Positions 1,504-58,679 of a DNA stretch of 64,000 nt are shown here, piece after piece. The translations under genes were made by a program, and so were the position numbers. Numbering within the stretch: the first letter of the stretch is position 1; each line of letters starts with the position of its first letter. The notes beneath the pieces are model-generated. The model was not told the origin of the DNA. It saw only the letters and a list, made by a program, of their open reading frames with translations, and ran no database searches. The stretch spans positions 7,870,437 to 7,934,436 of the forward strand of contig NW_020656077.1 in NCBI RefSeq assembly GCF_003589595.1, in the 5' to 3' direction. The DNA comes from Hyposmocoma kahamanoa (taxonomy: Eukaryota; Arthropoda; Insecta; Lepidoptera; Cosmopterigidae).

Positions 1504-3189
1504 TCAGTTGGTTTGCCCATGCCAATGATCTTGTGCATATTGAGGCAGTTCCATTGGCAATTTATTAAAACCTGTGCTTGGGACTGGGTTTGGTGCTGGG
1601 CCTTTTTGAGCGTTCGCTTGTCTGAATTTTGTAGAGTATTTGTAAAAGTCGGACATTTCAAATGGCTTTGTCTCCTCCCTATAAGGGATACATTTACCCT
1701 GCTCTATTACAGTAAGATTTTTTGGAGATTCTAGAGAGACGCCACTGGGTGAAAGTACAGGAGGACTTTGAGGCACTTGATTGGGACTCTGCATTGCTGA
1801 ATGCCTTCCGGTTGATATCATTATCTCGTACGTTTGAGAGTTACCAATACTAGATGTTCTCTTGAGGCTGGAAGTCTTTTTAAGAACAGGAACATCTTTA
1901 GTCGGCGAATCTAAAGAAGTTTCATACCACTGCTTCTCTTTAACCTTACTGTCTGTTTGTGAAAGTGGTGAGAATTTATTGATACTAACAGAATCAAAAT
2001 TACTCTGCGAATAACCAGACATTTGACTGACAGGGCTCATAGCATCTGGATATGTTCTTCGGTCTTCCCTAATATAATCATCGGTAGACACTTGCAGCTG
2101 CATATGTGCAGGATTTCTTATTACATTGCGTTCACGCAATGGCAATGTGTTAGGTACTTGGGCAACTCGTTCATTTGGGATATGAATTCTATCACTTGGT
2201 TGTTCTTGAATATCTGGTTGTGATCGATGCTGAAATATTTGGGCTGGTGGTCTATAACTATCAGCAACATTCTCTAAGTGGTGATTATAGTCACTGTGAG
2301 ATGTAAGGTGGTATGTCTGTGTTCTCTGCAATGTGTTGCGACGGACACCTTCTGGGCGCCTCTTAGTCTGAGACTGAATGGCGTGGTGATGAAGTCCACC
2401 TAAATGCTGACTTTGCGCTTTTAGTTGAGACGCATACTGGTACAATAAAGGAGAGTTGCGAACACCATTTTGTTGGATAGAGTGTGTTGCCAGACCTCCA
2501 TGCGTGTAATGGGTAGTAATGTCAGGGTGACTGGAGCTAAAGTGAGTTTCTCTTAACCTTGACACATTATGAGTTTCTGGAGCATTGCTGTAGTAAATCT
2601 TGTTCATGTACTCATTGGTCATAGTGTGGTGTCTATACATATGCTGTTGTTGGACATCTACATTTTCTGAAGTACCTTCAAGTCGGTTAGACAACGCTGG
2701 GTACGTATAAGACGCATGGATCGAAAATGTATCAGGATTTCGTTCTTGAGGAGGCGACGGGAAAAAATTTGAACAACTCGTTTCAGGACGACGCACATGC
2801 CGCGAGTGAGCGCTTTTCGTCGATATACCTGATATTGAGGGTGTGGACAGGCGATGCGAAAGATTTTTACGCAAATTCTGGTCTATATCAGCATTTCTTT
2901 CTATTCTAAGTCGACGAGAATTGTTGTCTAATCCGTCTTGAACGTCATTTCCATCCGTAGATCTCTCGACGCTCTTTATACTTCCGAGCCTGTCTCTAGA
3001 TATTTCGGGACTCAGTGGCGCTTCAGGAGGCATAATACCAGTTAGTTGTACTTCTTGAACGCAAAGTTTGTACAACTCTTCATTTTTAGATGCCAACATT
3101 TGCTCCAGTTCCTTCTTTCGAGCTTGCAACTTTAACATCTTGTCCTGTTTATCTGAATGCAAATCGCTACCCATTGTGCTTGTACCCAT
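1504..3189 (-). CDS. sstn: CUPID-domain cytohesin adaptor, Stepping stone-like (FRMD4/INAVA family)
   Basis: Single-exon frame of 561 codons. Residues about 18-60 form a charged coiled coil running into ELYKLCVQEVQLTG and a proline-rich PPEAPLSPE. This matches the CUPID (DUF3338) domain of FRMD4A/B, CCDC120 and INAVA, which binds cytohesin Arf-GEFs. The middle is a long low-complexity His/Ser/Gln-rich, probably disordered region with an SSLKRTSS patch. The C-terminus carries a second conserved-looking block, PFEMSDFYKYSTKFR, near residues 509-523. There is no FERM domain, so it resembles the insect adaptor Stepping stone rather than full FRMD4. I start at 3189 because the longer frame to 3240 opens with GTG. 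The ATG at 3189 has A at -3 and G at +4, and a second good ATG lies at 3174. An upstream non-coding exon is possible. Head-to-head with MPC2. Family call strong, exact orthology inferred. Confidence 0.8.
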   Translation of the reverse strand: MGTSTMGSDLHSDKQDKMLKLQARKKELEQMLASKNEELYKLCVQEVQLTGIMPPEAPLSPEISRDRLGSIKSVERSTDGNDVQDGLDNNSRRLRIERNADIDQNLRKNLSHRLSTPSISGISTKSAHSRHVRRPETSCSNFFPSPPQERNPDTFSIHASYTYPALSNRLEGTSENVDVQQQHMYRHHTMTNEYMNKIYYSNAPETHNVSRLRETHFSSSHPDITTHYTHGGLATHSIQQNGVRNSPLLYQYASQLKAQSQHLGGLHHHAIQSQTKRRPEGVRRNTLQRTQTYHLTSHSDYNHHLENVADSYRPPAQIFQHRSQPDIQEQPSDRIHIPNERVAQVPNTLPLRERNVIRNPAHMQLQVSTDDYIREDRRTYPDAMSPVSQMSGYSQSNFDSVSINKFSPLSQTDSKVKEKQWYETSLDSPTKDVPVLKKTSSLKRTSSIGNSQTYEIMISTGRHSAMQSPNQVPQSPPVLSPSGVSLESPKNLTVIEQGKCIPYREETKPFEMSDFYKYSTKFRQANAQKGPAPNPVPSTGFNKLPMELPQYAQDHWHGQTN

Positions 3190-3710
3190 ATTCAAAATTA
3201 AACTTAAATTACACGATGCATGAGGAATAACACTAAACACAAGAGTAAATAAAGAAAAGTAAAATAAACAAAGGAAATTATAAATTCCCCAATCGTTGAC
3301 ACATTACATTACACACTCACACGCCCACACATTCTATCCATGTTTTTTTTTTTATGTTGAATTACAAATTGCGTTTTGCAAGTGCACAGTGGCGCAATGT
3401 AATGAAATTTGTGTAAAAAGGTTCGTACCTGTACTATCTGCCTGTTTCGTAGTGAAACGTTAATAAATATCAGAAAGGATTATTGTTTTACACAAGGGCT
3501 TTTAGAATTGAAGCTTTTATGAGAAAAATTAGATGCAACTAAATACAAAGCATTTTTATTTAAAAATAACTTCGAAAAGTTTTAATTTGCCCCTTCGCAA
3601 TGACTTTTTCACGAACTTAATATTCTCCAAATGATATAAAAGGACTGCGACTGCGACCTTCTACACAAAACGTTGTAATTAGAGTTGTCATTTGTTGTGA
3701 GTATTATACT

Positions 3711-5605: not shown

Positions 5606-5690
5606 ATGGCTAAAGTATACAAAGCTATTATCAGCGCCTCTGATAAGTTTGTGCCGAATGCTTTTCGTCCACTATGGGAACATCCAGCTG
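5606..5690 (+). CDS. MPC2: MPC2 exon 1
   Basis: Encodes the N-terminal 28 residues ending EHPA plus the first base of a glycine codon. The donor is G|GTACGT. It contains the amphipathic N-terminal segment and the RPLWEHPAG motif of the family. Confidence 0.93.
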
Positions 5691-6715
5691 GTACGTACCT
5701 AATTAATTATACTTATTACTATTCTGTGATGTATTTTGTCCATAATTAAATGCGCGGTTGAGTAAAATAATTTTTTTCCAGGTCCAAAGACGATATTCTT
5801 CTGGGCACCGGCATTTAAATGGGTAAGTGTAACGCGGATATGGCCAAGGTCGAGCTATTTATTCCGAGACCTTGTATTAGGGCAGCGATAACAAGGGTAC
5901 GGTACGATCGACGCATTGATTTTCGTACCTTTTACGATTTCAAAAAAATATTTTAATTTTCGTTCAAATATAAATTACATCCATGAGATAAGGTATCTAC
6001 TTACATGCAATCGAATGTTTAACCTTGAATAAAGCGTTAGCCACTTTATGATTTAAATTTCTATAAAACAAATGCTTATCTCGACTGTGATGTGAAATAT
6101 CTTTGTCTGAAAAGTGAATCTATGTTGATTGGGTACTGTTGCTCATTGAATTACTTTAAAAATATGTACATATTAATGTAGCAATATCAATTTGACACAG
6201 ATATCAAACACAGAAACCTTTTGTAAAATTTTTTACATACATACAATATTTATTCATAAATTTTTTTTTTCAGCAATTTAATTGTCATTAATTTACAACT
6301 GGAATTGATTAGCTTTTTATTTCATTACTTTTGTAACAACATAAGTAGGCGCAATTAAATTGCATGTAGCACGATCATCACGACAGGCTTAGGAAATGCT
6401 ACAATAAGAAAAAGAAAATATGCTGTAATGGATAAACTAACTGTCTTGTGGTTTTTCATTCTGATATCATCTTAACACTTTCAGGGTTTGGTGATAGCGG
6501 GGTTGGGAGACATTAATCGTCCCGCTGATAAACTATCCATATCCCAATGTTCATCCCTTGCAGCAACTGGTTTGGTCTGGTCCCGTTACTCCCTTGTCAT
6601 CATACCAAAAAACTGGAGTTTGTTTTCAGTTAATGTTTTTGTTGCTGCCACAAATATCTATCAATTAGCCAGAGCCTATCAATACCAGAAATCACTGGAG
6701 CAACAAAAAAAATAA
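5606..6715 (+). CDS. MPC2: Mitochondrial pyruvate carrier subunit 2 (three coding exons)
   Basis: Spliced product is 118 residues. MPC2 pairs with MPC1 in the inner mitochondrial membrane to import pyruvate. Diagnostic motifs in order are RPLWEHPAGPKTIFFWAPAF, then GLVIAGLGDINRPADKLS, then TGLVWSRYSLVIIPKNWSLF. The last is nearly identical to vertebrate MPC2 (known family motif). Three hydrophobic segments fit the three-helix topology, and the length is close to the 127-residue human protein. Exons are 5606-5690, 5782-5822 and 6485-6715, with GTACGT/CAG, GTAAGT/CAG borders and consistent phases. The start ATG follows ACAAA, with A at -3. Candidate polyadenylation signals (AATAAA-type) lie around 7300-7370. 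A diverged second copy of the last exon lies 5 kb downstream. Confidence 0.95.
5782..5822 (+). CDS. MPC2: MPC2 exon 2
   Basis: A 41-nt exon encoding GPKTIFFWAPAFKW across the junction, between a T-rich acceptor and GTAAGTGT. It ends in phase 0, so it can join in frame to either exon 3 (6485) or the downstream look-alike exon (11685). Confidence 0.93.
6485..6715 (+). CDS. MPC2: MPC2 exon 3 (proximal terminal exon)
   Basis: Starts after TTTCAG in phase 0 with GLVIAGLGDINRP and runs to a TAA stop. It carries the second and third transmembrane segments, including RYSLVIIPKNWSLF, and ends in a Lys/Gln-rich tail. Confidence 0.95.
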   Translation, partial: GLVIAGLGDINRPADKLSISQCSSLAATGLVWSRYSLVIIPKNWSLFSVNVFVAATNIYQLARAYQYQKSLEQQKK

Positions 6716-8395
6716 ATTATTTCAGCACTTATGGTAGATCATTTGAAAAAAATATTTAGAATCTGTTTAACTTTTAGAGGGTTTTGTAGGCACATTTTAA
6801 AAGTAGATTATATTTTTATTTATTTTTATTTTTTAGATGACATTGGTGATTATTAATATTTATTTTACTATATTTATTGCTTACATAGCTCGAATAGTAA
6901 TAAGTAGGGTGTCATTGAGTTATGGGAGCGTCTTTAGGTAGTTCAATTGAATCTCTGGTGGTTTTTCATTCTTTTAAAACCATCGTTGAGTGACTGTATA
7001 GCCTGCAGCATTCAAATAGAAAAGTCATGACAAAGAATACATACTTAAGAAAAAGTTATATTATTGTTGATGTTGTAAGATTGTAAATATTTTAGGTTCC
7101 TTAAAATGAGACATGGTAAGACTTCAATTCATTGGTCATCAAAGATTAAGTAGTGACAAATTAAACTACGGAAAAAATATTAAGACACAATCACAGGCCT
7201 TACTGTATTTAAAAAGGAACTTTTGCAATTGTAATATCATAGCTATTAAAATATTATTATAATTGAATCGATCAATCAATTTATTTGTTTGTCATGATCT
7301 TAATTTAAATAAATCCAACTTATTCTAATATAGCATGCAAATATAATATGTTATTCAACTATAATAAAGTACAATTCTTGTTATGACACTACAAGAACTA
7401 TGAATTTTTAACAACAACATCTTCAAGGTGTGAGTCATGCTAAATATTTTACCACCCTCCCTTTATGGCTAGAATGAATTTAAGTCCTTGACCACCTCTA
7501 CAAATAATTTGAAAGATCTTAGTCTTCCTTGATATCTAAACATTTTATGGGACTGTAATCACAAGTCTACAAATTATACGATAACGAAAATATTTAACAG
7601 CTTGTTTTGAAAATCAATAATCTGAGCTTCAAGTAATTGGTGCTCTATAATATAGTGTTAATTACATGGGTATTCCTTATCTGTGATAGAAAAGATTACT
7701 ATCTTGTATTAAGGGTTAAATGCATATTCACCTGCAGGAACTTTACGCAGTTTTATTAATATTAGATATTAGAGACTATAATATTTCTAAATCTAAATAT
7801 GTTAAAGTGAAACGTAAAATCGTTGCAATTAGCCCTTATTTAATTGTTACTAGATTGCTAATACACAAGACTTTCTGCCATATAGTTCAATGTTATTATA
7901 AAACTGGCAGATTGTTTAAACATAAGTAGTTTGGCACATTTACAGAGTACCTTTGTTTTATAAGTTTGTGGTCACCCTAGCAATATAAAACAATTTTACG
8001 TATTATTTAACCCCCTGACGGGGACTACAACTTAAACAATCTTTGTTAATTTGCCAAACACTCTTCAAGTGTACTTGTTATGTGCTATTTTACTGTTATT
8101 ATGTGTTTAATACGTATTATTAGCCTAACTTTAACACTATTGGCACCATATTAAACTGATATCATGTGGAAATGTCTATTTTTGTAATACCTTTTTTGTT
8201 ATGGGAAATATACTGTTTTATACATATTTTCGTTCTTACTTATTTTATTTTCCTACGTTTTTGTCAATATTGTGACTTCTGTATATGTAAGTGTTATTAT
8301 TTCCATACTACAAGTACGTAAGTTTCCGTTTATTACCATTTCATGGCATCTCATTTACTCAAAGGCTAAATTTATATTGATGCGGAGTGGATAGG
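6716..8395 (+). other. MPC2 3' UTR and downstream AT-rich sequence
   Basis: AATAAA-type signals near 7303 and 7362 are plausible ends for the proximal MPC2 transcript. The remainder to 8395 shows no exon or recognised repeat. Confidence 0.4.
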
Positions 8396-8397
8396 AA

Positions 8398-8541
8398 GCG
8401 AATTTTTGTAACGATATTGTACATAGCACACGCTCGAGATTGCTCGCGCGTTCCGCGGAAGATTTTGGCTCGTGTCTACTTTATACGTTACAGAATTGAC
8501 CATATAGTTCATTATGTATAATATCGTTACAAAAATTCGAT
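8398..8541. repeat. Short TIR element (TCGAATTTTTGTAACGATAT ends)
   Basis: Left GCGAATTTTTGTAACGATAT and right ATATCGTTACAAAAATTCGA form about 20-bp inverted ends around a 100-bp body, a typical non-autonomous MITE. Confidence 0.7.
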
Positions 8542-8707
8542 TTTTTTCCGTTCCGTCACAATATAAATTGAGTCGAAGGTGAAGGAAGTAACACATTGAC
8601 ATAAATATCTTTCACAGTCTCGCGTCGCTTACTTTTCTTAATTCTGCATTAGTCAAGGAATGGGTATTGGAATAGAAAATGGCATATTCGTCGTAAAAGA
8701 AAAACAG

Positions 8708-10260
8708 GTACTATTTTAATATTATATTGCACTACAATTAGACAACGGAATGTCCATTGCACGATTTTTTATTGGCTATTGCTCATTGGCATAATAACGC
8801 ACGTTGTGGGGAATTATGTTATATTTTATAGTAGCCTATTATTTGCTAATATTATGTAGCTGTGCTAAGATATAGATAACTTTGCAACACTGATACAGTT
8901 ATCATTAGGGTCCTTGTAGATAACCTTAGAAGAATTAGGTATAGTCATGCATGCGCATTTGCACTTATTAAACGCGCGATAGAAATGTTTATAGTAATGT
9001 CAGGCCTTGCCGAGCCATGGTAAAAACTAGAATAAACTAGCAAAAATACCAGGTATTGTTAGGAGTAGGTACAACTCTCGGAAGAAATTAAGACTTCAAA
9101 AAGCAAATTTAGATATATAAATGAGTTTGAAACTTTTGTAGGTTTTGTTAAATATACAGCATATTTTATACAAAAAGCTTAATTTTCTCTTTTAGCTTAG
9201 TAGAAAATATTATAAAAAATAGTATTACTTACTGCCTTTATAATCAGTAGTAACTAAATGATCTTAAATTTCAAACTTTGCTATGAATAGAACTACAGTT
9301 CACAATTAATATTTGCACCTTTGTTATGTGCTTTGTTATTGTAATTTTTTATAATATTAATAAAAGCACAGTTACGTATGTATCCTAAGTAATTAAATGG
9401 CTTTAACTTAATAAACATCAAATATGACTTATAATAAATAAAAAATCTAATAATGAACTGTAACGAGGGTATAGTTACATAGGTACATACATTACTACGT
9501 AAGAATCGTTTCATATTAGTGTTTTATTCAGGATAATGGTAAAATAAATACTATCGAGAACGTACAAAATGTATTAATCAAAATAGCAAATTAGCTTTAA
9601 AGTAGTAGGTATAACCTGGTTTTATTAAATAATCAATGAATAGAAATTAAAATTATAGTAAAAAATCTGATTATTGATATCTTTTGCCCTTACTGTAGAT
9701 CTACTCAACAATAACTATTCAAATTGATTTTTATTCAAACCAAAACTGTAATAAAAAACAGTATTTTGAGAAAAAATACTGCTAAAAGTATTGTTCGGTT
9801 TTGTGTTTTTTAAGTTAATAACATTAAAGATACGTTTAGCTTACTATGTATAGTAGATATTAAAGAATTCTATCCAGCTGTTAACTTTGCAAAATAAATT
9901 ATTTCTATTTAAGTACGAATCAATTTATTTACCCTCGATAACAGACAACTGACTTGTTGTAATGCACCGGGATTTGCAGTGTTTTGGTTTGATACGACAG
10001 GACTCTTGGTGCTAGATTCTAGTGAGTAGTGTGTACCTACTAAATAAAAAATGCGAACTATGTAGTTCGCAAATTGCAATAAATTTCGTATAAATGCAGC
10101 ACGCGCGCTAATAAGTGAATGCATACAATACTGATTGACTATTTCTTGTTTAAGTATATGTTTATTAGAATTCCTGTATTAATGTCTATAGGTACAAGCG
10201 CAGTTAATATAAGTATTCCATATCTACCAATTCCCGCCACCAATTACCTACGTAATTTAC
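8708..10260. other. AT-rich sequence, no gene seen
   Basis: I looked for counterparts of MPC2 exons 1 and 2 (the HPAGPKTIFFWAP stretch) here and up to 11680 and found none on either strand. Confidence 0.4.
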
Positions 10261-10269
10261 GTATTGAAA

Positions 10270-10665
10270 AATGTTACTACCAATGCAGTACAGCCCTAGC
10301 TGCCAAGTTACTGTTGATAGTAACTACTATTACGAAAATAACATTTTAATTCTATTCTTCCTTCCAACTATGAAAGCGAGGTAACTGTGATTAACGACTA
10401 TTTTGGACCTGTGTAGTAGATTCATCTGATACTAGTTACTTCGTTTTAAAAATCCACATGCGTCCCGCTACCAGTTCCAGCCCTAGCAGAGCTGTAATTT
10501 ACTGTTGGTAGCAACTAATACAAGAAAATAACTTAGTTATTTCTATTCTATTCTTGCTACCAACTATGAAGTTTTATGAGGTAACGTAAATACGACTATT
10601 TTGGAAATGTATAGCAGAAGAATAGTAAGTTTTAAAGATCCACATGCGACTGGATTTTGGAAATA
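10270..10665. repeat. Imperfect tandem duplication, unit about 200 bp
   Basis: The words CAGCCCTAGC, TTACTGTTG.TAG.AACTA, CCAACTATGAA, GAGGTAAC and CGACTATTTTGGA occur in the same order in two consecutive units (about 10270-10470 and 10475-10665). Each unit ends near ATCCACATGCG. The units have diverged by substitutions and small indels. Confidence 0.7.
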
Positions 10666-10974
10666 AATTACATCTAGAAGTATAAGTACTTCTACATGTT
10701 ATTTTTCTTTTTTGTAGAATTAGCAATGCGTAAGTTCACTATAAAATAGCTTGCTTACCTATTGTGACCTTTTTGACCCCGACCTACCTACTACCGTGAG
10801 ATTACAGTGACAGATATAGCTGGCAACCGCGTAAAATATTTGTATAAAAAATGTTGTTTCTTCTTGTGGCCGTTGGCGGCGCTGTATAATTTGTCATACA
10901 AAATAGTGAAGTAATGTACACGGCAGTCGCTAGCCACAACTGTCACAGTAAACTCGTGGTAAATACACGTTATC

Positions 10975-11512
10975 GAGTATATTTTACTTAGAGGATAGAA
11001 AAATAGATTATAACCAGAATTATAGACGAAATTTTTTGAAAACTATTCTGCCAAATCATTACGGTGACAACTGCGCTCCGATCGGCCAGCCCGAATTCGA
11101 AACAATTGACGGGTGTCGTCAATTGTTTCATTTCAGATCGACCAGTTTAGCTTTGCTATAATGGACGAAAATTGAAAAATTACTTATTTAATATTCAATT
11201 ACCGATGAAATGTGGTTCCGTTTGTTTTGTAATTACATGTCTTGCTGTTTTTACCACACCACCGAATGGAACAGCCCCCCCATTATTAGAGATATTATCT
11301 TTATTACAATAAGTACAGAATGTTTTTGGAATATACGGAAACGTACATACGGGTCAGTCGTTGGCGCTGTACTATTTCAGCTTTCTAATTTGTGGTTTCA
11401 GCGTAAACGAGAGTTGATATTTAAAGGTGATATAAGGCCCATTTGCCCGATAAGTTGCCAGGGATGAATGACCCTTATTTCGTCTCTATTTCTGGTTATA
11501 TACTCGATGATG
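10975..11512 (+). mobile_element. Non-autonomous TIR element, family ATCGAGTATATAACC (copy 1)
   Basis: Its right end ATTTCGTCTC...TATACTCGATG, its internal GCCAAATCATTACGGTGACA and TGCCCGATAAGTTGCCAGGG words, and a GAGAGTTGATATTTAAA stretch recur in inverted orientation at 53944-54802. It lies immediately upstream of the distal MPC2-like exon. The left end is more diverged, so its start is approximate. Confidence 0.65.
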
Positions 11513-11684
11513 CACGTGTAAACGACTAGCCGATTCTGGTTTTGTGTCCTTTTAACTAGCTGATTATTACCTACGTCTACTTGATAAGTCTGGTCTAAAA
11601 AAACGTACGAAATAGGCCGTCTGTTTTTTTCTTTTCACCTCTACATTCAACAAATAAGTAACATGATATTTGCAAATTTTACAG

Positions 11685-11918
11685 GCTCTTGTAATGGCGT
11701 CTTTGGACGATTTCCGTCGACCACTGGAGAAGGTGTCCACTACGCAATCTGGGAGCTTGGCCGCGACTGGCTTCATATGGACTCGTTATTGCCTCGTCAT
11801 CGTCCCTATTAATTATTCACTTTCGTTGTGTAACTTTATGCTGGGTTTGGCTAACGGTGTACAATGTTTCAGAGCGTACAGGTACCAGCAAAAGATAAAA
11901 ACTGATAAGGAAGCATAA
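11685..11918 (+). CDS. MPC2-like terminal exon (alternative last exon of MPC2 or remnant paralogue)
   Basis: Acceptor TTTTACAG is followed in phase 0 by 77 codons that align end to end with MPC2 exon 3: ALVMASLDDFRRPLEKVS against GLVIAGLGDINRPADKLS, and GFIWTRYCLVIVPINYSL against GLVWSRYSLVIIPKNWSL. Identity is roughly 40% by eye. The frame is open to a TAA and the C-terminus is again a basic Tyr/Gln tail (RAYRYQQKIK), so it looks maintained. The conserved Lys of the PKNW motif is replaced (PINY). No exon 1 or 2 counterpart was found upstream, but the phase matches the MPC2 exon 2 donor. The simplest reading is a mutually exclusive terminal exon with its own AATAAA near 12442. A partial pseudogene or a gene with an unrelated first exon are the alternatives. 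Confidence 0.75.
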   Translation, partial: ALVMASLDDFRRPLEKVSTTQSGSLAATGFIWTRYCLVIVPINYSLSLCNFMLGLANGVQCFRAYRYQQKIKTDKEA

Positions 11919-12752
11919 TTTAAATGCGTAAGAATACAATGACGTTAAAATACGCATCATATAATCATATATCTAACAAATGATTTATCAACTAAATGAT
12001 CCTGTCATTAAGCTATATACTTTATGTACAACAGGCAAGCCAATTGTTCTTTGCTCTCGAATACGAAAACGCCACTAAATACTTTTATTACTTATCTATT
12101 TTACGTTCTATTTTATGTTCTATACTATAGATTTTATGAATTTCAATAGATTTTATATGGATTTTTGCTATTGCAATTCTCTGAATTTATATTTTAGGCC
12201 TGGTACCAAAATACCAGGTACCTATCTTATCAAGTTATCGCACACTGCTTTGTTTACATAAACGCGTATGTATGGGGCACTCACGGCGATAGTGCTAAAT
12301 TAACATATCTAATATAATAATATAACGGAATAGACCCCCTGCTTAAAGGGCAGGCGTGGCCCCAAAATAGTGCGCCGCTCTTTTTAACTTACTACACCAC
12401 ATCCTTAAGTAGAGTTACGGTCCCTTGAAATCGGTTAGTGTAATAATAAACTTTTTAGAGCTAACTTATTTGTTAAATGTTTCAAGTCTTGGCATTTTTA
12501 CAAAGAACCTACTTGTGTAATAACAAAAAATGCTTGTCAATTTTTACCTAACACAACTAACATGCATCGAATATTTATTAAAGTAATTTCTGAAGTCATT
12601 GCTTAGAAGATACTTGTTCTAGCTACATGTATTATAAACTATTGTATATACTATATATGATGCTTAATTTCCTCCACTAATATTTTATACTTATTTCCTT
12701 CTTAAATATATATAAGTTGTTATTCTAATCAGGTCTGCCTATGTACACCTGG
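11919..12752 (+). other. Possible 3' UTR of the distal MPC2-like exon, then AT-rich sequence
   Basis: AATAATAAA near 12440 is a candidate polyadenylation signal. Nothing else is recognisable. Confidence 0.3.
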
Positions 12753-12756
12753 CTGC

Positions 12757-12893
12757 TACGGATGATAGTCGAGACGCGCGCGATAAAATTGAAATAAGCG
12801 CGCGCTATTGGTTTTCACAATCAGATTTAATTTAGATACCCAATAGCGCGCGCTTATTTCAATTTTATCGCGCGAATCGCGACTATTATGCAT
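12757..12893. repeat. GCGC-rich foldback MITE (copy 1)
   Basis: The arms carry CGCGCGATAAAATTGAAATA and its complement with GCGCGCTATTGG inside, and about 30 bp of loop. The same element occurs at 15354-15483, with matching outer GTCGCGAC words. Confidence 0.85.
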
Positions 12894-20600: not shown

Positions 20601-23600
20601 GATGGGTGAGTCATCCATGCTCCACCAGTGGTATATCTCGGGACAAACGTGTTAATTGATTGCTCTACAATGCTATTCTAGAGGACTGTACCATCGTAGC
20701 AGCGCGACTTGTATATGTGACGCACGCATTCGCATAAATTTGCGATTCACTCGCGTCGCATAAAGTGTTAGGATACTTCTTTTGCTCCTGACAAGAAGAA
20801 ATGTTCCATATAATTCATGAGTACTTAAATAGTTTTTTACATTTACAATGTTTACTTTGAAATGCATTTTTCTTTGCAGCAAATGTTAATCCGGTGCAAT
20901 GAAAGCCCAGCATCACCAACTGAGAAAGAAGAAGTGGAGCTACTCCTCACTCTGTGTGGCCTTGTTAGAAAAGAACCAGGATTAGCAAATATTTTCACCA
21001 CACCTTTTATAGAAGACAAGGCTTCGATGTTAACTATCCCAGAAGATATTCAAAAGTTGATACCCCTCCGGAATAAAGTTCAAACTCCTAAAAAGAATCC
21101 TCTGTTTGAAGTTGAGATGCCTACAACTCCTCTTAGAAATGTTTCAATAGTACGGACGAGCTTGAAAGACGAAAGTTGTAATGCCACTTCAAGTAGCTCA
21201 GTAGCTGAGGAGAATGCATCAAACAAAAGTCACAAAACTGTCTGTGATGACAATGATAAATTTCTTTTAATTGATTTACTGTTGTCTTACTTGAATAGTG
21301 CAGTGAGTGTCGTTATTTTGTATTGATCTCTCAATTCTGTTTTTTACCACTACAGATTTTTTTTTAAATCTCTAAAATGAATTCACTTAGCTGAGTTATC
21401 CATCAATTAATTTGTACATTTTCCCTATCTAATTTATAATATTTTCAGGATAACCAAGTAGTGTTGCGCGCTTGCGAAGGCATAATGATAGTATCGTCTT
21501 TGCCAGAAGACGATATCGCTAATCTGGTGACGACGTGCAGCCCCTGTTGCGAGACCATTGTGGACAAACTAGCAACCAAATACAAGAACGTGCCAGCTAA
21601 TGTTGACCCTAATGATGTCGATCATCTAAACATTACGTGGGCGTAAGTATTTTGACGTATTATCTTTTATATATATATATTCTTACACAAGTGTCACAAT
21701 TTAATTTATATTAAGAAGTGGTAATTTTTTACGACAATTAAACCGACTGTTCTTGGCCGTTGTTTGCACAAATTCATTTAAGCAGCCATGTTTCTATAAT
21801 AAGCCTTTGGTTGATATTCAAAATTTGGCATTTACGAGGCTTACAACTATAGTGACACAAGAAACAACAATGGCGAACTTCCATATAAATTTTTTTTTGA
21901 TATAAATTATATGCGTCTGTTTATGAACAATATGTGACAATATGGAGTTTAAATTCCTGAACACATTTGGTTTTTGGTTTACTATTATGAGAAGTCTGAA
22001 ATTAAAGATATTCCAGTTTTAAGTTTTGGAGGTTATATTTTACATTGAATAAAATATATTCGGTGCATTGTTATATTAAACTAAACTACAGTAACCTTAA
22101 GCAGACTTAACGAAAGTGAATGGTGTCGTGGGTTTGTGACGAGACGAGATTCAGAGGCAGAGATTTTATGATATAACCAAAAAGCATGAAGTTAAGCCAT
22201 GACAAAAGAAAACTGAGTTAATTCATATTGATAACTCAGACACAAATTGGACGTAGTTAAACAAAAATGATCCAATGCACATCCAGTCACTTTCGAGATA
22301 CGGCAATTTGAAGTTAAAAAGTGTTTCTCACTCTTTTTTTATTTTCAAAACTTATAATGTCATGTAACTCCAGAAATATGTATTTATGTTTATTTGTGGG
22401 ATTTTTTGCTGATCTAAGAGGTTAGACTTTAGGAACCGTTTGATAGATATAACAAATTTTTTGATAATTTTTTCTCGAGTGGAGTGTTTTAGAGAAGGAA
22501 TTATCTGCTTTACTTTTTGTAATAAAGTAGTTAATCTTTTATTACAAATCTGTCCAATCAGGACATTTGATATTATGTGAAGTAACCTAATGTGCATCTA
22601 TCTATACGTAGGTACTGAAAATCTTTTTTTTGGCGGCTAGATGTCGCTTAGCGTCAGGAGATAAGGAAACTGACAGTTATAGATATCAGTCTGGTTCCAT
22701 ACTAAGTAGTCATTTGAATTTCTTTTAAATTTGATTTTATTCCAGACTTAGATAGGCCTGTAATATAATTTGAAAAACTAAATGAATTTATTTTATTCAA
22801 CTGTTATACAGTTGAAGACGCTAAAGTATTCTTTTAACAATGATGTCGTCATTGTTCTTTATATTAAAGTGTGCTTCTGCATACTCGGATGGCAAAAACC
22901 CAGATAGTGACTTGTTTAGCTGTAACACGTTTTCTCGATCTATGTATAATTTGAAAGAAATATTGTAAATTATATAACATATCGCACTGCTATTACAATA
23001 GTGTTGTAACTCAAAATACGTGAAATTCAAGATTATACCATTTCTGAATGTAAAATTTGATTGTCTACACGGCAATAAAACCATTTTTAGAATATTGTAG
23101 GCAACCATTAAAAGATGTCCACTTAACTCAAAGTGAGACACACTTCATGTGAGCTAGTTCTGGTCAATATAGCCCATATTCAAAAGTTAAGTTTTCCCTT
23201 TTATTTTTAAATATATTTGGCAAATTGGAAATTGCTTAGATGTCAGTTATAAACTGTAACCTATACATAAATTTCAACGATTTTTCGCGGGAAGTGTTTT
23301 TCATCAATTCTGAAAAAATACTCTTATTGAGTGAATACACTATTGCATTAACAGTGCGACATATGCAAATAATTATTTACAAAGAGCCTCCTTTACTTCT
23401 ACTTGAGATTCTTACTCATTGTCCTCAGGGGAATCTGCCTTACGAATTAGTAAAGTATGATCAATGTAACGATTTCAAAAGTAATTTGATTACATAAGAA
23501 ATAAGGATTATTTGGGCTTAAGTAACTACCAGCAATACGGAATGATATTTCCTGTACAGATGAGAGTAGTAGTTAAGACAATTGATATATTTCGTCGGTG

Positions 23601-26600
23601 TTTTAGTGAAAGCATGTTTTGGTATTTCACGGTTATTTTAAAATATTTACATTCTGTTTTAAATTAAATTTTAAAACTTAGTTACATATTGATATTTAAA
23701 AAAGAGCGTAAATATTAGGGGTTAAAGTATGAAATTGCCGTTTTATTGCAATAGGTNNNNNNNNNNNNNNNNNNNNNNNNNNNNNNNNNNNNNNNNNNNN
23801 NNNNNNNNNNNNNNNNNNNNNNNNNNNNNNNNNNNNNNNNNNNNNNNNNNNNNNNNNNNNNNNNNNNNNNNNNNNNNNNNNNNNNNNNNNNNNNNNNNNN
23901 NNNNNNNNNNNNNNNNNNNNNNNNNNNNNNNNNNNNNNNNNNNNNNNNNNNNNNNNNNNNNNNNNNNNNNNNNNNNNNNNNNNNNNNNNNNNNNNNNNNN
24001 NNNNNNNNNNNNNNNNNNNNNNNNNNNNNNNNNNNNNNNNNNNNNNNNNNNNNNNNNNNNNNNNNNNNNNNNNNNNNNNNNNNNNNNNNNNNNNNNNNNN
24101 NNNNNNNNNNNNNNNNNNNNNNNNNNNNNNNNNNNNNNNNNNNNNNNNNNNNNNNNATTAGATGGCAGCAATGTATAGATAATAATGGCAACTATTTTGA
24201 TTATTAAATTTGTTAAAAATTTAAAAAATAAACAATTTAGATTTTCAGTACAAATCGGCAATTTCATACTTTAACCCCTATTATTTTAAAACAACCGCGA
24301 AAACCTAAAACGTGGCCCCCCTGAAAAATTTTTCGCAATAGCGATTTCGCCTTCTACAAATATGCTATTGTTCACGCGTGTTATAATTCTCTATATCTTG
24401 GAAATGAAACAATTTTTCCGGATTTAGATCGCGTATATTTGTTTTTAAAACAAACCAACGTTTCGGGTCCTTTACAGGTCCCATGGTCACGGTTGACTGA
24501 TTTAAATCTGGAAAAGTAGTTTCATTTCCTATGTGTAACAATCGGGAAAACCTAAAATCTCTATATCTTGTTATAAAATTAAATTTAAAATAAGTAATAA
24601 TAAGAAATTTAAATTTCTTTAAGCATAAGAAGCCCTTCACATGTCAGCGAGAAGGGATATATTTATATTTATATATATTTTTTTACAACATTATGTGACG
24701 GGACGAACAAGGCGTGCGCCTGATGGTAAGCCTATCCATAGCATTTACAGTGCCACTCAGAGCTTTATATTGCAAAGATCTGAAGGGCACTACCACTGCG
24801 CCCGTCACCCTGAGACATAAGTTGACAAGTCCAATGTGCCTGTAATTTAACCAGCACCCTTACCCTTCAAAACCGGAACACAGTAATGCTGACATTACTG
24901 CTTGGTGGCAGAAATAGGTACTTCCCTGGATGAACCCTTTCACAAGGAGCTCTACTGCTACTCACTTAGGCATAAGGTTATAATTGTTACTAACACGATA
25001 TGGAGACATTCTGAAGTAATCAATTATTATTATTATTATTATTACAGGTACGTGGCTCAAGATTTCGGTGACAAATCGTACAGCAAATTCCACGGCTACA
25101 GAGAACTAACCAGTTTCTTTTCATGGTTGGACTATTGCGATACGTTAATGAAGGTAAGATTTTACTTGTTCTGTGCCACTGTAACACTGTAGTATAGTAT
25201 ATTTTTGTTGAATTCATTTTGACTTGATAAACCACCTTAGGGAGTATTAGTGCTCTTTAACTTTAAGTCACGGCTTTCTAATTAGACCTCTGCTCTGGTC
25301 TTTTTGCTAGTTTACGTGCTGTCAATCTCTGCTAACCTCTACCATGAGTTTATAGTGATCGCGTAGAATGCTTCTTCACAGTCACAAATTGTACATTGTG
25401 TATTTTAATATATAAGAAAAATTTTGAAGCTGCAACTGTCTGATAATAGCTTTTAAAAACGTTTTTGTTTCACAATAATTTGAAGCCTCGTAACCAATAA
25501 ATTTAGTATATCAACCGGAGTCTTATTTTAGAAGCGTACACATTGGCCACACACATTGGTACACACTTGCACCTATGTGATTGCACGTGTTAGAAGATCC
25601 CGGAGTTATTACTAAAGTACTAAACTCTATTATAAAGGGAAGTCAATTATCTAAAGAATTCAAAAGCAGAGTTATAGTAAACCAAGTTTTATTTTAATAT
25701 AGGGTAAAACAAAATGTCAATTAACAGTATAACAGTAAACCTAAGTAATTAAAACCAGAATCACTACCAGAAACATAATTCAGTTTTAATCAATTATGCC
25801 AGCATGAAACTAACAAAAAAAAAATGTTACAAGTGATTTAAAAATAACAGGATAGGCAAATGAAACTAATAGCACTATTCCTTCAACTCAAGGATTAGTT
25901 TTAAGCACTGACATGTTTTAAGGTGCTAGTTAATACAAAATTATAGCAAAATGCTAAAAAAAACTAATTAAAATGGACGAGTGAAAACAATAAGTATTTA
26001 TAACGGATTTCATACGTTTAGGTACTGAATCTATACCAAAGCCTAGGGACATTGGTCCTATTTACACAACACAATTACACAGTAGCAAAGCAGTAAAACT
26101 AGTTACAAAAAAGGTACTTAACTTTTCCTGGTTCAGGGTTCGGCACTTTTTATAATGAGCCACCCCAGCCTTACATTCCTTTTTATACCCTTCAAAACCC
26201 CCTTTGAAAATTTACTCATACACACACTATTTTGGCCAATCACAAAACAGTAGTCGTTTACATTTGTACCGTGCTGAAGATAATTAAAACGTTTACCTAA
26301 TAAGTTGTTAAAACATATTTAAAGAATTGTAACTATTATATAAACCTCGTAAATGTTTTAATTTAGCAAATATCATCAATTTTATGTACCAAAATATCAG
26401 CCAATCACAGAGCAGTATTGTTTGACTCACTTGGTTGAACATTAATTTAAAATGTTATACATTACAAAGTTGTAAAGATAATCTTCGTGAATACTATATT
26501 TAGTATAATAATTATACAAGATTCGCAGTCGTCTAGTTTAGCTAATTATCATTAATTTTAGAAACCATAACATAATAGTCCATAAAAAGTTGAACGAAAA

Positions 26601-47279: not shown

Positions 47280-47820
47280 CATTGACGTACAATTATATGG
47301 ACATCGGGTCCGCGCTAAAAAGTGTCCGAACTTATAGGGCGTTAAAATCGTATACAGAGCGTCATTCACGCTTTANNNNNNNNNNNNNNNNNNNNNNNNN
47401 NNNNNNNNNNNNNNNNNNNNNNNNNNNNNNNNNNNNNNNNNNNNNNNNNNNNNNNNNNNNNNNNNNNNNNNNNNNNNNNNNNNNNNNNNNNNNNNNNNNN
47501 NNNNNNNNNNNNNNNNNNNNNNNNNNNNNNNNNNNNNNNNNNNNNNNNNNNNNNNNNNNNNNNNNNNNNNNNNNNNNNNNNNNNNNNNNNNNNNNNNNNN
47601 NNNNNNNNNNNNNNNNNNNNNNNNNNNNNNNNNNNNNNNNNNNNNNNNNNNNNNNNNNNNNNNNNNNNNNNNNNNNNNNNNNNNNNNNNNNNNNNNNNNN
47701 NNNNNNNNNNNNNNNNNNNNNNNNNNNNNNNNNNNNNNNNNNNNNNNNNNNNNNNNNNNNNNNNNNNNNNNNNNNTGGTTTTTGTATTAGACCCGTCGTC
47801 CATTTATTTGTAAGTCAATG
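47280..47820 (-). mobile_element. hAT-like MITE, copy C (contains gap)
   Basis: Both ends of the family are present in inverted orientation, and an exact 8-bp duplication GTAGACAT flanks them (47272-47279, 47821-47828). The middle is masked by N, so true length is unknown. Copies A and B are 286 bp, which suggests the 400-N size is nominal. Confidence 0.9.
47376..47775. other. Assembly gap, 400 N
   Basis: Second N run of exactly 400, inside a MITE whose sister copies would leave far less than 400 bp missing. Confidence 0.98.
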
Positions 47821-57169: not shown

Positions 57170-58679
57170 CACACATCAAAAAAAGTTTGCGATCAATAGC
57201 ATAAGCTCCTATAATTCTTTAAATTTAACTTTATCAAGAAAAAATCTATGTTGTATGCTTTCTTTAAATAGGAATACCCTGTTTGAAATTAAAATATAAA
57301 ACTATTTTTTATTGTTTATTTTAAAAATTGAGCCATTAATCATAATGTAATAATGATAGAAATTTCATAGAAAGAAAAAGACTGTTTAATTAAACTTAAA
57401 CAACAATTTATTATTAAAAGGTGTGAATTCAATATAAAATAACTCCTCCCCTGACTCGAATACATGCGAAGATCCTCCTATCCCATTCTTCAATAGCGGC
57501 TTCCCTGAGCTCTGGAACTGTTTGGGGACGTGGCTCACGGTTCCATACTGCTCGTTTAAGAGCATCCCACGCGTGCTCTATTGGGTTTAAGTCGGGCGAG
57601 CCGGCAGGCCAGTCTAATCGTGTGATATCGTATTCTTGAAGAGCAGCATTGACTCGTTGAGCTCGATGTGCGGGCGCATTATCATCGACCAGTACAAATT
57701 GGTGCCCATGGTTTACTCGGAATGGTCTGACGATATCATCAATAGCAACTGCTTTGTACATGTCTGCTGTCATGAAGCCCCGATACGGGATCAAAGGCGT
57801 TCTAGCTCCAATCATAATGCCACCCCAAAAGGACACCGATTTTCCGCCTTGCTGAACTGTTCCAGTGGCAGTTCTTTGTCTTTCACGGTCGCCTGGTCTT
57901 CTCCAGACACGGACACGTCGGTTATCTGGATGAGTGCTGATTCGGGATTCGTCAACGAAGAGACAGTTTTGCCAAATGTTTTCGTCCTCACCTTCTTCAT
58001 TTTGCCGAAGTCTAGCCCACTGCAATCTTCGTTGTTGACGTTGCCGGGAATTGAGCGGAGCTCGCCAAGACCTCCGTGCTCGTAATCCAGCCTGGTGCAA
58101 GCAATTGCGAACGGTCTGCGTGCTAACTTCAAGCCCAGAGGCGGCCCTGACTTCTGCTTTTATTTTAGTGGCGTTGATTGTTGGATCACGGGCTGCCAGC
58201 AATCTAATATAGCGCTTTTGGGCAGCTGTCAAAACAGTTGGGCGACCGCTGCGGGGTCGGTCAGCTAAATTCCCCATTCCGTGATACCTCTGCAACGTAG
58301 CCACGACACAGGATTGGGATATAGTAAGTCTGCGTGCTATTACTCTCGTGGTGTATCCTTCTTCCCTCAAAGTTACTATTCTAGCTCGTAAAACCTCTGA
58401 TAATCCTCTTGGCATTTTTTCAATCACAACTTTCCGCGAAAAATATCTTGAATCGCTTATAATTGACTAAATCAGATTTCTGAATGAGCGTAAGCTAGGA
58501 CTGAAAGCCTTTTTATATGAAAAAACAATTGAACGGGGTCATTGTTTTATGTTCTAATTTATTTTTAAATATTTTAATTTTGTTCTAATTTATTTTTAAT
58601 TTTTAAATCATAATATAATCTACAGTAACAAAAAAGATTTCAGTTTTTCGAAGTGATCGCAAACTTTTTTTGATGTGTG
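57170..58679 (-). mobile_element. Intact Tc1-like DD34E transposon, 1,510 bp
   Basis: Perfect 26-bp terminal inverted repeats (CACACATCAAAAAAAGTTTG then CGATCA, at 57170-57195 and complement at 58654-58679) are flanked by TA on both sides (57168-57169, 58680-58681), the standard Tc1/mariner target duplication. It contains one uninterrupted transposase gene on the minus strand. Everything visible is consistent with recent, possibly autonomous activity. Confidence 0.95.
57429..58415 (-). CDS. Tc1-like transposase, 328 residues, intact
   Basis: Cut-and-paste DDE transposase acting on the flanking TIRs. The N-terminal paired-like helix-turn-helix begins LSEVLRARIVTLREEGYTTR and ends RRLTISQSCVVATLQRY. 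The linker GRPTVLTAAQKRYIR resembles the GRP(R/T)-containing AT-hook-like motif between the two HTH subdomains. The second HTH is at about 75-115. The catalytic triad is CLFVDESR (first Asp), LVDDNAPAHRA (second Asp) and SPDLNPIEHAWD (Glu). I count 34 residues between the second Asp and the Glu, so DD34E. GG.VSFWGGIMI is the usual Gly-rich box. The length is typical (about 340). I use the ATG at 58415 because the longer frame to 58427 opens with GTG. No stop or frameshift. Confidence 0.95.
   Translation of the reverse strand: MPRGLSEVLRARIVTLREEGYTTRVIARRLTISQSCVVATLQRYHGMGNLADRPRSGRPTVLTAAQKRYIRLLAARDPTINATKIKAEVRAASGLEVSTQTVRNCLHQAGLRARRSWRAPLNSRQRQQRRLQWARLRQNEEGEDENIWQNCLFVDESRISTHPDNRRVRVWRRPGDRERQRTATGTVQQGGKSVSFWGGIMIGARTPLIPYRGFMTADMYKAVAIDDIVRPFRVNHGHQFVLVDDNAPAHRAQRVNAALQEYDITRLDWPAGSPDLNPIEHAWDALKRAVWNREPRPQTVPELREAAIEEWDRRIFACIRVRGGVILY

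Follow-up and report, generated by a model that had tools for sequence, protein, structure and literature searches.

The entry of pyruvate into mitochondria is among the key points at which energy metabolism is controlled; the mitochondrial pyruvate carrier (MPC) is a drug target. We analysed the gene for its MPC2 subunit in a 64,000-nt stretch of contig NW_020656077.1 of Hyposmocoma kahamanoa (positions 7,870,437 to 7,934,436, forward strand; hereafter the window), where the canonical last exon (proximal) is followed by a diverged copy of itself (distal). The closest functional parallel to this exon pair known to us is the phosphate carrier SLC25A3, likewise a mitochondrial inner-membrane carrier, whose alternative exons are switched between tissues or stages (PMC5740500, in the available part of the text). 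The SLC25A3 exons are treated in that part as mutually exclusive internal exons, whereas the moth MPC2 exons are terminal and carry a stop codon each; according to the same part, homologous terminal exons were kept apart from the main set in at least one survey of mutually exclusive human exons (PMC5740500). Alternative last exons (ALEs) resemble the moth exons in having one donor and a separate stop in each of two 3′ exons, but the moth MPC2 last exons are homologous copies that encode the same structural elements, making up most of the transporter core.

The NCBI models of lepidopteran 'MPC2 isoform X1/X2' already hold an isoform pair, including one from H. kahamanoa, a gelechioid moth (PMC11373647, in the portion at hand); they are predictions only. 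Searches of the open-licence literature for MPC2 isoforms of Lepidoptera, silkworm or insects and for duplicated last exons returned no description of the pair among the matches listed, judged by title or the start of the abstract; a description elsewhere is possible. A literature search for Drosophila testis paralogues was without result, and a search for MPC with Manduca or flight muscle gave nothing relevant to the isoform pair among the matches listed. Our analysis indicates that alternative last-exon use behind common exons 1 and 2 very probably gives two MPC2 subunits, in H. kahamanoa and in many ditrysian Lepidoptera.

The exon structure of the locus (Table 1) shows one common donor and two phase-compatible acceptors, with a stop in each last exon, as in ALEs. 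Exons 1 and 2 together comprise 126 nt, or 42 codons, so that exon 2 ends in phase 0; exon 2 encodes the lysine equivalent to human MPC2 K49. Both last exons start in phase 0 after AG and end with a stop, and the distal exon is preceded by AATTTTACAG. Translation of exons 1 and 2 joined to the proximal exon gives P0030, the canonical product and isoform X2 of the NCBI models, letter for letter and with a stop, while the same exons joined to the distal exon give P0001, isoform X1, equally exactly. These joins agree with the initial annotation of this DNA, which had described the distal exon as aligning with exon 3, staying open and beginning in the phase that exon 2 donates. In tblastn searches of the window with 190 MPC protein queries, exons 1 and 2 were each matched once, and no second exon 1 or 2 for an independent paralogue was found at E ≤ 0.02, as had been claimed earlier; the power of this search is low for a diverged 14-residue exon 2. 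The same queries found no third copy of exon 3 in the window, where the best other match (60272–60168, minus strand) has E = 0.022; runs of N occupy positions 23757–24156 and 47376–47775.

The distal exon is not private to H. kahamanoa and is present in many other moths and butterflies. Used alone as a query, it found 29 matches among 30 candidates, the first being the NCBI entry 'mitochondrial pyruvate carrier 2-like isoform X1 [Hyposmocoma kahamanoa]' (119 aa). When nine distal cores were combined into a profile, 70 of 328 candidates matched it at E ≤ 1e-10. The top 36 of these matches (E ≤ 1.9e-26) bear a complete or partial distal-type core; after a gap, MPC2 proteins of other kinds, among them nematode and fungal ones, start at 2.9e-20. 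An organism was assigned to 29 of the 36 distal-type proteins, and each of these organisms is a moth or butterfly, the range extending from Plutella and Eumeta through noctuids to butterflies, genera that we take to be Lepidoptera. One distal-type fragment from Pieris brassicae (P0182) ranks lower, at 1.2e-15.

Distal- and proximal-type proteins of the same species mostly begin with the same sequence. Both a distal-type protein with its N-terminus and some proximal-type protein were found in the match lists for 15 species (partners of other distal proteins were sought only within the best 120 of 1458 matches), and in 12 of the 15 the N-terminal segment of 42–45 residues is identical in the two types. 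The 12 comprise 11 complete pairs named as isoforms, plus P. brassicae, whose models are fragmentary or fused. Between species, the N-terminal segments of the 11 pairs share a mean of 76% identity (66–85%, 55 comparisons), and their cores share 79% (distal with distal) or 82% (proximal with proximal); distal and proximal cores within a species share 49% (42–55%). N-termini identical within each of these species are not expected of two long-separate genes. In addition, P0154, an intron-free open reading frame (ORF) from a 2,255-nt contig, has exons 1 and 2 joined to the distal core across both junctions, while P0002 and P0003, from the same source, begin in intron sequence and read through the acceptor. 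P0154 thus suggests a spliced transcript and would be one piece of transcript-level evidence. The proposal of a common N-terminus with an alternative core, made in the initial annotation, is therefore supported by the two H. kahamanoa models, by 12 of the 15 species and by the P0154 frame; the comparison with related species that it had suggested bears this out in those 12, and not in the other three.

Several points weigh against the use of both exons in one gene. The N-termini differ in three of the 15 species (Zerene, Helicoverpa and Mythimna loreyi). The sole proximal protein available for Zerene, like that for Helicoverpa, seems to come from a separate gene; in M. loreyi, P0023 carries the distal core behind another N-terminus, and it looks mis-joined because part of a proximal-type exon is also present. 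The 11 pairs were chosen by their isoform names, so species with both isoforms annotated are over-represented, and the H. kahamanoa isoforms X1 and X2 are themselves predictions. The distal core is annotated as a separate or truncated gene in Euphydryas (P0007) and Eumeta (P0020), and an Operophtera model (P0031) fuses it after the proximal core, in the same order as in the window. P0154 is a single entry, an intronless retrocopy could look alike, and it is our assumption that it derives from a source of assembled sequencing runs, RNA among them. Finally, the pyrimidine tract of the distal acceptor is weaker than that of the proximal one (0.56 versus 0.69).

Two species carry more than a pair. 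Manduca sexta (P0071, P0072 and P0004) and Danaus plexippus (P0104, P0088 and P0025) each have three different exon-3 cores behind one identical N-terminus, so a terminal-exon array can exceed two.

In a tree of 88 rows, all 27 distal rows form one clade with support of 100/99, computed from 69 columns, which were flagged as few, and with a bootstrap that had not fully settled. The stem of the clade measures 1.56 changes per site, and the branches inside it are short except for one Cydia row at 0.89. This long stem with short inner branches points to one origin, a burst of change and then constraint. On the age of the duplication, the free tree places the distal clade among outgroup rows on a long branch, while an alternative that keeps the lepidopteran rows in one group is not rejected and has the higher score (p-AU 0.60). 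No distal-type core from a caddisfly was found among the matches listed (including the best 120 of 1458), which does not establish its absence from caddisflies; P0139, presumably a caddisfly protein and the one recognised, is a canonical MPC2. Rows were labelled 'distal' or 'proximal' by visual inspection of their sequences. Counted among the 43 'proximal' rows are the separate MPC2-like genes, together with the third Manduca and Danaus cores, and 3 of the 18 outgroup rows are entries with no organism assigned. Mis-joined, fragmentary or read-through proteins (P0023, P0032, P0157, P0182, P0165 and P0159) were left out, as were the distal entries P0002, P0003, P0007, P0008, P0010, P0015, P0151 and P0156 and other search matches that were not selected; P0031 was split into its two cores, and P0020 and P0150 are represented by cores cut from partial proteins.

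Separate MPC2-like proteins, with N-termini of their own and proximal-type cores, do occur in the noctuid moths Spodoptera litura (P0056), Helicoverpa (P0106) and Mythimna separata (P0145) and in Zerene (P0054), so the tandem insect MPC2-like genes mentioned in the initial annotation are seen here, as protein models only. Together with the foreign N-terminus of P0023, and with the chance that so short an exon 2, if diverged, escapes tblastn, such proteins would fit a distal exon that terminates an independent tandem gene, the first exons of which have diverged or lie out of view. We consider this very unlikely, since the 190 queries detect no second exon 1 or 2 in the window at E ≤ 0.02, the N-terminus of P0001 and of the distal proteins from 11 further species matches that of the proximal form exactly, none of the four separate genes has a core that belongs to the distal clade, and P0023 appears to be an artefact of joining.

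The distal exon also bears the marks of a constrained protein. A gap-free alignment of the two cores spans 76 residues and contains 35 identities (E = 4e-25, a single comparison). The Pfam family MPC (PF03650; cut-off 27 bits) is matched by the distal exon alone at 3e-23 (82.5 bits) and by the proximal protein at 1.2e-39 (135 bits). At this base composition, a 77-codon frame stays open by chance with a probability of about 0.003. Over 72 codons, the exons differ at 29 first, 24 second and 49 third positions, and this third-position excess is the pattern of protein constraint; dS between them is saturated (NG86 −1), so no dN/dS value is claimed. Between 11 species, the distal protein keeps its open frame and 70–89% identity, and 37 of 77 residues are invariant across 20 aligned distal proteins. 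The weaker acceptor tract and the predicted status of the isoforms might be read as signs of an unused relic or a predicted pseudo-exon. The conserved open frame, the single clade with its short internal branches (the Cydia row apart) and the spliced appearance of P0154 make a relic less probable still than a tandem gene. Least probable of all is a short protein made from a promoter of the distal exon's own, starting at an internal Met at 11694 (MASLDD...) and without most of transmembrane helix 1 (TM1): that Met is present in H. kahamanoa and models P0020 (Eumeta), P0015 and P0151 start there, but such a protein would lack the first half of TM1 and K49, a residue essential for binding in human MPC (PMC12007569, in the part available), the acceptor and phase are kept, and the Met is missing at that position in 15 of the 20 aligned distal proteins (e.g. 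ALVAAS, ALVLTS).

The predicted structural model of P0001 contains helices at residues 2–13, 18–24, 33–53, 61–80 and 86–118, and has the MPC fold, with an amphipathic helix, a linker helix and three transmembrane helices. Its six best structure matches are human MPC2 chains (49–56% identity); two further MPC2 chains rank among the MPC1 chains, which share 18–24% identity with it. The exon boundary, after residue 42, lies inside model helix 33–53, and the second half of TM1 is therefore swapped along with TM2 and TM3. The initial annotation had named helices 2 and 3 alone, correctly as far as those two are concerned.

In the distal rows, the residues of the pyruvate pocket are retained: T78 in 96% and W82, Y85, L96 and N100 in 100%, with K49 supplied by common exon 2. 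The distal core departs from human MPC2 (PF03650; 9GIV, 8YW9 and 9MNW) at other positions. Specifically, G56 is replaced by S (27/27 distal rows), G51 mostly by A (24/26; 5 of 18 outgroup rows have A as well), loop residue K92 by I or V (27/27, against K in 43/43 proximal rows) and V103 by L (27/27), and cysteines are gained at 86 and at 99 (27/27 each). In human MPC2, G51 and G56 have been proposed to let helix 1 bend (PMC12007569, within the text at hand). These hinge glycines are a proposed mechanical feature of the human protein and not family-defining, so membership of MPC2 and PF03650 stands despite their loss. The change from PKNW to PINY noted earlier is diagnostic in its loss of lysine; its W-to-Y part is not distinctive, because most proximal cores of Lepidoptera (39/43) already have Y as the last residue here.

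We propose that the donor at 5822 is spliced to 6485, with polyadenylation after the proximal exon, or that transcription continues, the proximal exon is skipped and 5822 is joined to 11685. Because both exons are terminal, the choice would lie between using the proximal acceptor together with the poly(A) site behind it and skipping both in favour of the distal pair, and coupling of last-exon choice to poly(A) site use is expected. Mutually exclusive splicing, as suggested at the outset, would accordingly take the form of alternative last exons on common exons, not of classical internal mutually exclusive exons. Both products would have the same amphipathic and linker helices at the N-terminus and the same first half of TM1, with the substrate lysine K49, and would differ from there to the end of TM3. 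The better tract of the proximal acceptor suggests that the proximal form may be the default and that the distal form may need help or a particular tissue setting; the distal form is probably used in particular tissues or stages. In H. kahamanoa itself we infer this splicing choice, next to an exon structure, protein models, a separate conserved clade, pocket retention and a loss of G56 and K92 that are observed. As the pocket residues are kept, the distal subunit probably pairs with MPC1 and binds pyruvate. The hinge, the gate and the intermembrane-space loop differ, from which altered transport kinetics, pH response or inhibitor sensitivity would be expected, and the two MPC2 subunits probably differ in transport behaviour.

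Table 1. Features of the MPC2 locus and of the remainder of the window
Feature	Position	Strand	Remark
MPC2 exon 1, coding part	5606..5690	+	start codon to donor CTG|GTACGT; tblastn 100% to P0001 and P0030
MPC2 exon 2	5782..5822	+	41 nt; donor TGG|GTAAGT, phase 0, common to both last exons
Proximal 3′ splice site	6475..6484	+	pyrimidine-richer tract (0.69 at −5..−20)
Proximal last exon	6485..6715	+	canonical MPC2 core, 76 aa + stop; isoform X2 = P0030
Candidate poly(A) signal, proximal	7308..7313	+	first AATAAA 3′ of proximal stop; hexamer common in this AT-rich DNA
Distal 3′ splice site	11675..11684	+	weaker tract (0.56 at −5..−20, equal to exon-2 acceptor)
Distal alternative last exon	11685..11918	+	77 aa + stop; second half of TM1, TM2 and TM3; isoform X1 = P0001
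Candidate poly(A) signal, distal	12445..12450	+	first AATAAA 3′ of distal stop; hexamer common in this AT-rich DNA
Imperfect inverted repeat	~12780-12875		identified by eye
ORF with CUPID domain	1504-3240	-	578 aa
ORFs with RAI16-like and DUF5917 domains	20862-21326 and 43055-43825	+	
Tc-type transposase ORF	57429-58427	-	332 aa, uninterrupted; DDE_3 and HTH_Tnp_Tc3_2 domains

The inverted repeat, on the 3′ side of the distal exon, is possibly a small mobile element. Elsewhere in the window, the ORFs with RAI16-like and DUF5917 domains are possibly exons of one gene, which we presume to be of FHIP type.

A broader reading, which we offer tentatively and hold at somewhat less than even, is that in Ditrysia a single gene supplies two pyruvate carriers that differ in function. 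The distal core would then have kept the pocket while its hinge glycine, loop lysine and gate residue were replaced, and, having arisen once, changed fast and then been frozen, it would represent a new mode of transport and not a spare copy, with three cores in Manduca and Danaus. The MPC2 pair provides an example of homologous terminal exons that swap most of a membrane transporter, and a natural subunit with the substrate site but without the proposed hinge residue G56 offers a ready-made test of the rocker-switch. A further question that it poses is why two MPC2 cores are retained in one gene across so many moths and butterflies.

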